64,000 nt of DNA from an uncultured Alphaproteobacteria bacterium (GTDB lineage Bacteria; Pseudomonadota; Alphaproteobacteria; HIMB59; GCA-002718135). The position numbers were made by a program, and so were the translations under genes. Numbering within the stretch: position 1 is the first letter of the stretch; the number at the start of each line of letters is the position of its first letter. Positions 14,613 to 18,114 of the stretch are shown here, one piece after another. The DNA lies in NCBI GenBank assembly GCA_902621855.1, contig CACNNQ010000002.1:62001-126000 (forward strand). Reading direction: 5' to 3'. The notes beneath the pieces are model-generated. The model saw only the letters and a list, made by a program, of their open reading frames with translations, was not told the origin of the DNA and did not search any database.

Positions 14613-14686
14613 ATTTTATTTATTATATGTCTTTATTAGTAACAATTTTTTTTTTAATTGCTAGGTTTGAAGACAAAACTTTCAAG

Positions 14687-14708
14687 TATAATTAGTTTCA
14701 GGTATAAT
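14687..14708 (+). promoter_or_regulatory. Candidate -10 elements for tmRNA (two TATAAT hexamers)
   Basis: TATAAT at 14687-14692 and 14703-14708, just upstream of the tmRNA acceptor piece; no convincing -35 with ideal spacing. Confidence 0.35.
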
Positions 14709-14709
14709 A

Positions 14710-14966
14710 ATAAAGTTGTTTTGCAACTAAGATAATAAATGCTTTGTGCAATAAGTTATTCGGACCCGGGGGCGGTACCCGGCGTCTCCACCAAATATGG
14801 GGACGAAATAGGTTTGACGGTAATTCAAAGACAAAGACTTTATCCGGTATTGTACCACCGTTATCGGGCTATTTTATAAACGCTAACGATAATAGATTAG
14901 CACTTGCTGCCTAGATTCTAGGTGGGCGCGGTCAGGGGCACCGAGCAACAGAACGCCCCATTTTTT
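14710..14966 (+). ncRNA. ssrA: tmRNA, circularly permuted two-piece form: acceptor piece (ends CCA at 14793), 5-nt spacer aatat, coding piece from GGGGACG at 14799
   Basis: T-arm CCGGG-GGCGGTA-CCCGG; acceptor CGTCTCC-A-CCA (14783-14793) pairs with GGGGACG (14799-14805, one G-T wobble); tag ORF GCT AAC GAT AAT AGA TTA GCA CTT GCT GCC TAG (14882-14914); GC-rich 3' stem followed by T6. 5' end approximate. Confidence 0.93.
14948..14960 (+). repeat. 13-bp direct repeat copy 1 (inside tmRNA 3' stem)
   Basis: ACAGAACGCCCCA. Confidence 0.75.
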
Positions 14967-15093
14967 AAATATTATCTAATCAAATCAACAATTTCTTTTA
15001 AAAACCTCTCTACGAAGTTACTACGAAGGAAAATATATAATTTATTATTAGGTAATGTTAATTGTCAGATTTATTTAAACAAATTAATTGATA

Positions 15094-15615
15094 ATGAATT
15101 ATGAGTCTGAACTAACTGGAGGTAATCCAAATTCACTAGGTAATACAATAAAAGTTGTTGAACATGTTATTGTTAAAAAAAATAGAATTAATCCATTAAT
15201 TAAGTGTTATTCAAGCACAGACCAAATAGTAAGATTAAGAACATCAAATGCTTTTAAAAGAATATTTAGACAAAAACCAGAATGGTTTTTAGATTTTAAA
15301 CATATTTTCTTAAACAAAATTTCAAAAATAAAACAATCTTCCACACAATGGACCTGCGCTCAATTATTTTCAGAATTAGTTAATCAATTAGAAAATAAAG
15401 AACAAAAAAAAGCAAAAAAAATTGTATCTGATTATCTTAATAATTCCAGTGATTGGATTGTTTTGTGTCAATCAATGAATGCTCTAATAACTTTCAATAA
15501 AATTGATAATAAAACAATAAAAGAAAATATAAAAATTATTAAAAAACTTTCAAAAGATAGAAGAAAGGCAGTTTCTAGACTAGCAAAGAAATTATTATCC
15601 TTAATTAAAGAATAA
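15094..15615 (+). CDS. HEAT-repeat-like helical protein of unknown function
   Basis: ATG at 15094 (the track starts at TTG 15088); MNYESELTGGNPNSLGNTIKVVEHVI... repeated amphipathic helices resembling HEAT/ARM repeats. Confidence 0.65.
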   Translation: MNYESELTGGNPNSLGNTIKVVEHVIVKKNRINPLIKCYSSTDQIVRLRTSNAFKRIFRQKPEWFLDFKHIFLNKISKIKQSSTQWTCAQLFSELVNQLENKEQKKAKKIVSDYLNNSSDWIVLCQSMNALITFNKIDNKTIKENIKIIKKLSKDRRKAVSRLAKKLLSLIKE

Positions 15616-15736
15616 AAAAGACTACGAAGAACTAAAACAAGAAATCTGACAAATAAAGAAAACTTACTAAGAAGTTTCTACGAAGAAGTTTCCAAAAGTC
15701 CTTATTTTCTGTTAATAATGATTTAGTAGTCGTTAT

Positions 15737-15749
15737 ACAGAACGCCCCA
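15737..15749 (+). repeat. 13-bp direct repeat copy 2 (intergenic, downstream of HEAT-like ORF)
   Basis: ACAGAACGCCCCA, identical to 14948-14960. Confidence 0.75.
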
Positions 15750-15826
15750 CTACATTCTTAAATTTTATTTTTTTAAGTTGCTCTAAATTTGTGTGTAATA
15801 TGTGCGTAAATAAATTAAAATTTTTT

Positions 15827-16182
15827 CTAATTTTCACCAAACCATTCCCAAATAACTTCGGCAATAATATCACAGCTTGTTCCACCTGATTCAATTACTA
15901 AAGCTGCGCCTTCAGCACCATTTTCCCAAGCCAATTCTTGGCTTTCAGTTAAATGATCTAGCTCTGATGAGTATCTTTCAAATCTTGGACTTTCTTGTAA
16001 TCTTTCTGTTATTAAAGTGTAATATTGATTATCTATACAGTTTTCTTCATAAACAAATATTTGAACCCATAATCCTCCTAAAGTAGCTATATCCTCATTA
16101 GAAACTTCTACATCATGAAAGGCTAGAGCAGGATTAACAAAAAATAAGAAGACTGTGATTTTTTTATTAATTTTAAAAACAT
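15827..16182 (-). pseudogene. Small secreted/periplasmic protein whose ATG and signal peptide start are out of frame with the body by 1 nt at an A7 tract
   Basis: ATG at 16182 gives MFLKLIKK; after the A7 run (T7 at 16159-16165 on +) the other frame continues ITVFLFFVNPALAFHDVEVSNEDIATLGGLWVQIFVYEENCIDNQYYTLITERLQESPRFERYSSELDHLTESQELAWENGAEGAALVIESGGTSCDIIAEVIWEWFGEN* ending at 15827; no ATG/GTG/TTG start in the body frame. Confidence 0.6.
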
Positions 16183-16213
16183 AATTTAAACATACAATGA
16201 AAATTATTGATCC

Positions 16214-17041
16214 TTAATTTTTATCAAAAATCAAATTATAAATTTTTGAAGAACGTTTTGTTGAAATAAAGCTTTTATTTGTAAGATATTCATTTAATTT
16301 GAACTTTTTATTTTTAATGTGATCTACAATAAATGAAAAATTTTCATCCTTTTCATTTAACTCAATTAAAATTGACTTTAAACTTGAAGACTCTAATGTT
16401 TTTTCTGCACCTAAAATTAAATCCTTTTCGTTTCCATCAATATCTATTTTTATATTTTCATATGGGCCAAATTTATTATTAAGTTCGTCAATAGTGATTA
16501 AATTTGCTGCATGTGAATAAGCATTAGTCATTTTTTCACCTCGTGTAGCGATTGGTTTCTTGGGAAAACCTGCAGCTAAATCTCTAAAATTTTTATCATT
16601 TCCTAATGATACATAAAATTTGTCAATTTGAGTCACATTCGAAATTGCATTCGGACATATAAATATATTTTCAAAAACATTATTTAAGATCACATTATAA
16701 TTTAGTGTAGATAAATTTGCTAAACATGGTTCAATTGCTGTTACTTTACAATTTTTTTTTACAGCTGCATAAATTGAAAAAATGCCCATGTGAGCCCCAA
16801 CATCCAAAAAATTTGAAGCATTATTAAAACCATCAATCCATTCAATAGTATTGGCTTCTTTTATTAATGATGTTTTTGCTCTAGATCTACTTTGAGATCC
16901 ATTTGATCTAAATAGAATATACTTATCTGAATTTGGAATCTTAACTTTTAAATTAAAATGATGTGCAAAATCAAAAAATGATTGGAATTTGGCTTTAATT
17001 TTAAGAGGTGTGAACTTATTTAAGATTTTGTTTTTGATCAT
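16214..17041 (-). CDS. FkbM-family methyltransferase
   Basis: FLDVGAHMGIFSIYAAVKKNCKVTAIEPCLANLSTLNYNVILN...IKIDIDGNEKDLILGAEKTL. Confidence 0.85.
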   Translation of the reverse strand: MIKNKILNKFTPLKIKAKFQSFFDFAHHFNLKVKIPNSDKYILFRSNGSQSRSRAKTSLIKEANTIEWIDGFNNASNFLDVGAHMGIFSIYAAVKKNCKVTAIEPCLANLSTLNYNVILNNVFENIFICPNAISNVTQIDKFYVSLGNDKNFRDLAAGFPKKPIATRGEKMTNAYSHAANLITIDELNNKFGPYENIKIDIDGNEKDLILGAEKTLESSSLKSILIELNEKDENFSFIVDHIKNKKFKLNEYLTNKSFISTKRSSKIYNLIFDKN

Positions 17042-17370
17042 ATTTCCTTAAAATAATTAATTAATAAATTTTGTAATACTTTTTTTTTCTGCTATCAATA
17101 CTGAATATAAACATTTTTCCAATACCTTTTGTTAAAATTACTTTCATTGATTTTTTATTATTTTTCTTATCTTTCTCTAATGCTTTCATCATTATTGCCG
17201 GCTTAATTTTTATTAAAATATTTTAAAAAAAACTTATAATAAAATAAATTTTTAAATTTACTAATTATGTTCATGTTATATTTGTAAACAAATTAAAAAA
17301 TAATTTTTTATAAAAAAAATTCTACTACTCTCAACTAAAAACCTTTTAAATAAAAACATATAACTCTAAT

Positions 17371-17745
17371 TTAAGATGATTGTTTAATTAACTTTTCCCA
17401 TTCTGCTATACCACCGGTAATATTTTTAACATTTTTAATACCCATATCTTTCATTGTTTTGGTTGATAAAGTTCCTTGTCCACCGACACCACAAAATACA
17501 ACATATTCTTTTTCAGGGTTTTCTCTAAAAAATTTATTTTCTAAGGGACTACCTTCTGCTAAATAAAATTCAAGAAAAGCTCTATCCAAATGAATTGCAT
17601 TTCCTATTGTTCCTTTATCAAAACTATCTTTATCCCTAACATCAATAAATTGCACATTTGGATCATTAAGTTTTTCTTTGGCTTCTTCAGCAGATATGTT
17701 TTCAATTTCATTTTTTATACTCATTAAGTCTTCAAATTTTTTCAT
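17371..17745 (-). CDS. Rhodanese-like domain protein
   Basis: VQFIDVRDKDSFDKGTIGNAIHL; catalytic-loop-like VVFCGVGGQG. Confidence 0.9.
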   Translation of the reverse strand: MKKFEDLMSIKNEIENISAEEAKEKLNDPNVQFIDVRDKDSFDKGTIGNAIHLDRAFLEFYLAEGSPLENKFFRENPEKEYVVFCGVGGQGTLSTKTMKDMGIKNVKNITGGIAEWEKLIKQSS

Positions 17746-17761
17746 ATTCTCCTCACTTCAT

Positions 17762-17794
17762 AAATGGGACGTTCTGTTGCGCAGTGACTGTGAC
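17762..17794 (-). repeat. Inverted, diverged copy of the tmRNA 3' end
   Basis: Reverse complement contains GCAACAGAACGtCCCATTT versus tmRNA GCAACAGAACGcCCCATTT at 14945-14963. Confidence 0.6.
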
Positions 17795-18000
17795 AGGTTT
17801 AATGTGTAACGGCACAAAACTTCACACAAAAGTTTAAGCAAACTCTAATAAATTCGCTCATCCTTTCTTAAATAAATTTATATTATTATATCTCAAAAAC
17901 GTAAATTTTAAATATTTAAACGGCACAGAAACGGCAAACATTTTCAAATTTTATAGACAATTATGTAAAAATTTAGATTCTTCTGTGGTATGTAATTAGT

Positions 18001-18114
18001 ATGAAACTTACATACCGCCATGAAATAGACGGATTACGAGCAATTGCTATTGCTGCTGTTATTCTTTATCACACTCAAATTACTATTTTTGGTTATCAAC
18101 CTTTTAAAGTATGA
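18001..18114 (+). pseudogene. Truncated N-terminus of acyltransferase-3 (OafA-like) protein
   Basis: MKLTYRHEIDGLRAIAIAAVILYHTQITIFGYQPFKV*; matches the family N-terminus and ends where 'GGFIGVDIFFVISGYL' would be expected. Confidence 0.8.

Follow-up and report, generated by a model that had tools for sequence, protein, structure and literature searches.

SAR11 bacteria belong to the most abundant groups of bacteria on the planet; their genomes are very small, and their accessory genes turn over fast, by routes that are poorly known. The locus described here, which lies within a 64-kb stretch of DNA (the window), raises a question that bears on those routes: how does a single gene come to be enclosed between two exact copies of the end of a neighbouring RNA gene? 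The window is assigned to SAR11 on the basis of its gene content, its tmRNA and its relatives, which are single-cell genomes of uncultured Alphaproteobacteria and Pelagibacteraceae. Directly behind its tmRNA gene (ssrA) is a 789-bp one-gene unit bounded by the two copies of ACAGAACGCCCCA, which a sequence-only reading had taken for an integrated mini-element or island remnant. The reading of an integrated unit with no integrase is supported, but it was too narrow, as the unit is not an isolated relic but one of a large family of tandem cassettes. The features on which the argument rests are as follows.

14676 to 14962, plus strand: permuted alphaproteobacterial tmRNA gene, ssrA (Rfam RF01849, 215.8 bits; ARAGORN tmRNA*, tag ANDNRLALAA).
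14948 to 14960, plus strand: core repeat, tmRNA copy, the left attachment site (exact ACAGAACGCCCCA match).
15010 to 15028, plus strand: putative left arm-type repeats, CTACGAAG twice (15010-15017 and 15021-15028), with an 11-bp period.
15094 to 15615, plus strand: cargo gene, 173 aa, weakly HEAT-like; the sole open reading frame between the repeats, also open from a TTG at 15088.
15622 to 15685, plus strand: putative right arm-type repeats, CTACGAAG at 15622-15629 and 15678-15685, with a degenerate CTAAGAAG at 15667-15674.
15737 to 15749, plus strand: core repeat, downstream copy, the right attachment site of this cassette and the left site of the next (exact match).
15750 to 16244, plus strand: second cassette, left portion; its arm repeats GTGTGTAA/GTGCGTAA span 15791-15809 with an 11-bp period.
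17765 to 17777, minus strand: third core copy, ACAGAACGTCCCA, before the rhodanese gene; the chromosomal end of the array, inverted here.
17778 to 17945, minus strand: right-end remnant of a TGTGCCGT-class unit, with an approximate right limit; it resembles the terminal part of the G090 integrase element.

The direct repeats of the tmRNA 3' end are exact at both positions where they had been reported and have no other exact copy in the 1.48-Mb genome. That uniqueness, together with a chance expectation of 1.8e-6 copies per 2 kb (first-order Markov estimate), rules out a chance repeat as the origin of the pair, and an assembly artefact is ruled out by the many independent assemblies that show identical junctions within long contigs. 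The first copy forms the terminal stretch of the permuted alpha-tmRNA gene, and the acceptor CCA of the tmRNA lies upstream of the core, at 14791-14793; because ssrA is permuted, the 3' end formed by the first 13-mer is that of the mRNA-like piece and not the CCA/T-arm end. Its earlier placement in a terminal stem is plausible, as its GCCCC pairs with an upstream GGGCG, but a folding z of -1.0 makes the case a weak one. The ssrA sequence itself is intact after insertion, as in the target gene of a tDNA-targeted integrative genomic island. Elsewhere, one genome assembly (G061) holds two full-length tmRNA genes on separate contigs (G061:C33:4455-4752 and G061:C55:12473-12762), and weak partial tmRNA-like matches of 25-29 bits lie within arrays (G013:C13:2864-2940, G098:C4:80727-80814, G083:C2:32198-32343, G065:C46:2171-2258 and G103:C4:12211-12295); these may be ssrA fragments carried along, or unit ends with a likeness to the 3' end of ssrA.

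Between the repeats the single open reading frame first noticed at 15094-15615 stands, and encodes 173 residues. Its description as HEAT-like is harder to sustain: the best PDB match of the protein is alphaRep (30 residues, E 5e-4), which weakly indicates HEAT-like helices, but a Pfam Cnd1 match falls below the cut-off and the AlphaFold model is unusable (pLDDT 42, from too shallow an alignment). A defence annotation was rejected, PADLOC having given a chance-level Cmr5 match only; a search for a known phage homologue of the cassette or of the cargo protein gave no meaningful match, and a promoter and terminator scan of the unit returned no more signals than shuffled sequence did.

It is the ends of the unit that suggest how it might move. 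The 64-kb window holds four copies of CTACGAAG, against an expectation of 0.25, and every one of them falls inside the unit, two near each end; compared with most relatives, which have three of these repeats on the left, the window copy is one short there and has a mutated arm on the right. The pattern extends across the 60 non-redundant units that were identified: when the two inner ends of one unit are compared, their longest common motif has a mean length of 7.3 bp, and the mean falls to 1.7 bp when ends are cross-paired (p 1e-24), and a motif of at least 8 bp is shared by the two ends of 38 of the 60 units but by 10% of cross-pairings, a conservative comparison because the cross-pairings include units of the same class. 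Direct repeats occur at the left end in 35 of the 60, with an 11-12 bp period in 34 of them, compared with 18 of 1180 interior control windows, and begin at a fixed distance of ~60-70 bp from the core; the other 25 left ends have no clear repeat by the criterion used, and some of the segments may therefore have decayed or be composite. Motifs vary by class (examples are CTACGAAG, TGCACACACT, ACGCGTMAT, TGTGCCGT, GTGCGTAAT and TGTGCACA). Arm-type sites of lambda-type integrases have just this arrangement, and the unit ends thus have the anatomy expected of such sites.

Some genomes lack the cassette. Among 80 regions retrieved downstream of tmRNA, 78 of them orientable, the empty sites for which the sequence-only reading had proposed a search were found in seven genomes, as core followed by the next unit or core followed by the rhodanese gene: the tmRNA core of L094 and of L100 passes without a break into the sequence that begins at 15737 in the window (92-93% identity across the junction), and in L109, L114, L121, L124 and L127 it is joined directly to the rhodanese gene. 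The 13-mer at the boundary is retained in nearly all carriers. The site is occupied in 51 of 68 genus loci, where the core recurs, in up to eight copies, and the tmRNA is followed by one to seven units, mostly of 0.5-2 kb; because no more than one mismatch was allowed in the cores that delimit segments, these counts leave out borders that have decayed. Arrays also occur in two of ten surveyed loci of family f2, in further f2 loci and in other genera, and the class with CTACGAAG ends is present in four genera. Their cargo is a miscellany of GNAT acetyltransferases, FkbM and other methyltransferases, HNH and exo-endo-phosphatase nucleases, UDG-like, trypsin-like and bactofilin proteins, a permease and many small secreted proteins with no assigned function; an 11.2-kb segment in L132 carries an ABC transporter and, as its two ends differ, may be composite.

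In the window, the second cassette has homology that reaches 16244-16309, and homologous units occupy other places in other arrays. The small secreted protein that it encodes elsewhere (123 aa in L120) corresponds here to no open reading frame of 60 aa or more: a run of T lacks one base that relatives have, which points to a frameshift or a sequencing error. From 16214 to 18111, a stretch that takes in the last core and the rhodanese gene has the opposite orientation to that in relatives, where both run in the direction of the tmRNA; the TGTGCCGT-class right-end remnant sits behind this inverted core.

The HEAT-like gene, which it had been suggested might be sought at other ssrA loci, is present in 32 of 102 genus genomes (one genome per species), with 26 copies in arrays. 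Relatives of the cargo are 96-99% identical, with median identities to the window copy of 98.4% over all nucleotides and 96.8% at third positions, while mrp, thyA, folA, the rhodanese gene, gpmA and fumC in the same set have third-position identities of 64-80%. Sixteen distinct downstream neighbours were counted among the 31 copies with a readable right end, nine of which pass directly into the rhodanese gene. Where the HEAT-like unit lies in an array, it is the first one behind the tmRNA in 23 of 26 cases, the position predicted for newcomers that insert at the ssrA core. The data support a family of tandem cassettes with class-specific terminal repeats, of which the window unit has spread recently; from sequence comparison, one-gene cassettes appear to move between species. 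The cassette is also found near a tRNA-Gly gene, away from ssrA (L271 at 5264 on the plus strand, L272 at 4977 on the minus strand, L050, L060 and L061), where it lies behind a core with the upstream end CTGTGACACGCA. In L272 an integrase N-terminal fragment lies beside it, and G070 carries the cassette in its tRNA-Gly region while its own ssrA site (L121) is empty.

A unit that moves and has no integrase would need one from elsewhere. That the window unit has none, as first proposed, is confirmed by its one open reading frame, and the sole tyrosine recombinase match of the genome lies far from the locus, on contig C1. Integrase elements of the same layout do occupy the same site in relatives: G064 has an intact 340-aa ssrA integrase directly behind the left end, G090 a broken one (51-58% identical, and searched in its broken, unrepaired form), and G100 an integrase N-terminal fragment only, inside an otherwise ordinary unit with intact ends. 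Just before the start codon, the tyrosine integrase genes of these genomes, whether they sit at ssrA or at a tRNA, carry a repeat of 8-9 bp, mostly with an 11-bp period. The units with one gene resemble integrase elements whose integrase has given way to cargo, with G100 as a possible intermediate. All three ssrA integrases accompany arm motifs other than CTACGAAG. No relative of an ssrA integrase was found in the window genome, none of the CTACGAAG-arm units contains an integrase, and none with CTACGAAG arms was found in 162 genomes of the order or, by exact pattern, in IMG/VR; with genomes that are mostly incomplete, such absence of helpers is weak evidence. An intact ssrA-linked integrase occurs in one of the 73 genus genomes with a tmRNA match over the cut-off, many of these assemblies being incomplete. 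As a separate observation, among the SAR11 tyrosine integrases that sit at various sites (L240-L252 and others), at least seven have TGTCACAA as their arm repeat.

Viral genomes were also considered. An autonomous parent in IMG/VR was rejected, as exact CTACGAAG-class and core patterns matched unrelated phage genes and phage-encoded tmRNAs only, and the sole match to the arm pattern (L186) lies within a long phage open reading frame and is put down to chance. Eight viral contigs (L190, L191, L192, L195, L197, L198, L200 and L202) encode permuted tmRNAs that end in the CAACAGAACGCCCCA core, so phage genomes may offer an attachment site; no cassette was seen behind a viral tmRNA in the contig parts examined. 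Marine phages with a same-core tmRNA could conceivably act both as landing sites and as carriers.

We consider that these units, which have no integrase, are mobile cassettes that ssrA-specific tyrosine integrases move in trans and that collect in integron-like arrays, and put the probability of this reading at about 0.83. On this reading the unit ends are complete tyrosine-integrase attachment sites, each made of the 12-13 bp core ACAGAACGCCCC(A) and the inner CTACGAAG arm repeats. An integrase with CTACGAAG specificity, supplied by another element, would excise the unit as a circle, whose predicted junction joins the right end, core and left end of one unit (e.g. GTCGTTATACAGAACGCCCCATTTTTTAAATATT); no circular form was seen. 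In another cell, the circle would enter the permuted ssrA at its 3' end, through the same core, and ssrA would keep its sequence because the core is duplicated; repeated insertion through the same core with different arm motifs would build tandem arrays between ssrA and the rhodanese gene. A carrier between cells and a benefit from the cargo protein are parts of the model that we infer.

Other histories could leave a similar footprint. A former island that had lost its interior, integrase included, and was now inherited vertically would account for a unit with no integrase; G100, with an integrase fragment between intact ends, resembles such a deletion half way, and the window copy has lost one arm. 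Vertical inheritance is contradicted by cargo third positions that are 96.8% identical when those of both flanks are at 64-80%, and also by patchy presence, exact empty sites and 16 different neighbours, which together make a dead remnant very unlikely; deletion may be the origin of such units, but not the route by which the window unit spread. The resemblance to integrons, with tandem single-gene units and new ones mostly at a proximal fixed site, might prompt the thought of a genuine cassette array built by IntI on folded attC sites. By inspection, the boundaries are instead a linear, ssrA-derived core of 12-13 bp with arm repeats on both sides and no GTTRRRY attC motif, and the linked integrases, judged by their matches to PF00589 and to phage integrases, the nearest at ~30% identity, are lambda-type, so that we attach almost no credence to an integron proper.

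The array might also be an additive island, shuffled by homologous recombination between the ssrA and rhodanese flanks, its short repeats no more than old scars. The flanking genes are indeed shared, and additive islands with repeated tRNA ends appear in other streamlined bacteria (PMC10872708). Single units have nevertheless been added next to varied neighbours through junctions that fall exactly on the core, the HEAT-like gene lies also in the tRNA-Gly region away from ssrA, and shuffling leaves the class-matched arm repeats at both ends unexplained. A repeat of 13 bp is, besides, short for RecA-type exchange, and we judge this account unlikely.

Trans-mobilised cassettes, our preferred reading, are not without kin: the SAR11 ssrA arrays are a variant on known types of element at tDNA and tmRNA sites, although no description of them was found in the literature searched (many subscription papers lay beyond the search). 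CIMEs are units flanked by attL and attR that have no recombinase and accrete in tandem; classically they derive from ICEs, are kilobases long and number few per locus. The 789-bp unit carries attL and attR with no recombinase, and tandem accretion occurs at its one site, and in these respects the two are alike, but here there are dozens of mostly one-gene units in many arm classes. An integrase of its own, one mark of a tDNA-targeted integrative genomic island, is absent from the cassette. Tycheposons, attributed to Hackl and colleagues in 2023, are reportedly tRNA-linked, cargo-carrying integrative elements of streamlined ocean bacteria, with a tyrosine recombinase as their hallmark. That recombinase, replication genes and a kilobase-scale length (4-200 kb, as quoted in PMC10872708) are all absent from the window cassette. 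Another comparison is the additive island of Methylopumilus at tRNA-Lys, where the recurring last 20 bp of the tRNA gene delimit units; its target is a tRNA, its hosts are other bacteria, and the available text does not describe arm sites or unit-level mobility (PMC10872708).

At tmRNA genes themselves, the Pseudomonas islands I23, I44 and I55 with IntY (PNAS 2025, PMC12595487) share insertion directly behind the tmRNA, short direct repeats, a tyrosine integrase and a lack of transfer genes, and transfer by a helper jumbo phage was demonstrated for I55. Each encodes its own integrase and its repeat is the CCA end of a one-piece tmRNA, whereas arrays of integrase-less one-gene units, a feature here, are not described in the accessible text (PMC12595487). 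The Dehalococcoides ssrA islands (McMurdie et al. 2011, PMC3146451) are also tandem units behind ssrA, many with no integration module, with short direct repeats of the ssrA end and accessory genes. Where they do have a module, it is a six-gene one with a serine recombinase (DsiB) and insertion is in the T-loop (PMC3146451); such a module is absent from the one-ORF cassette, and in SAR11 the linked integrases are of tyrosine type, the units mostly 0.5-2 kb and most of them equipped with matched arm repeats.

A larger proposition, to which we give even odds, is that SAR11 ssrA is an integron-like platform for gene capture, where tiny integrase-less cassettes in arm-motif classes are moved by several rare, ssrA-specific tyrosine integrases. 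A defined site where units of one gene, identifiable by their ends, arrive, accumulate and disappear is a testable route of accessory-gene turnover. The cassette ends allow recent transfers to be read from single-cell genomes, and the arm motif could predict which helper integrase moves which cassette.
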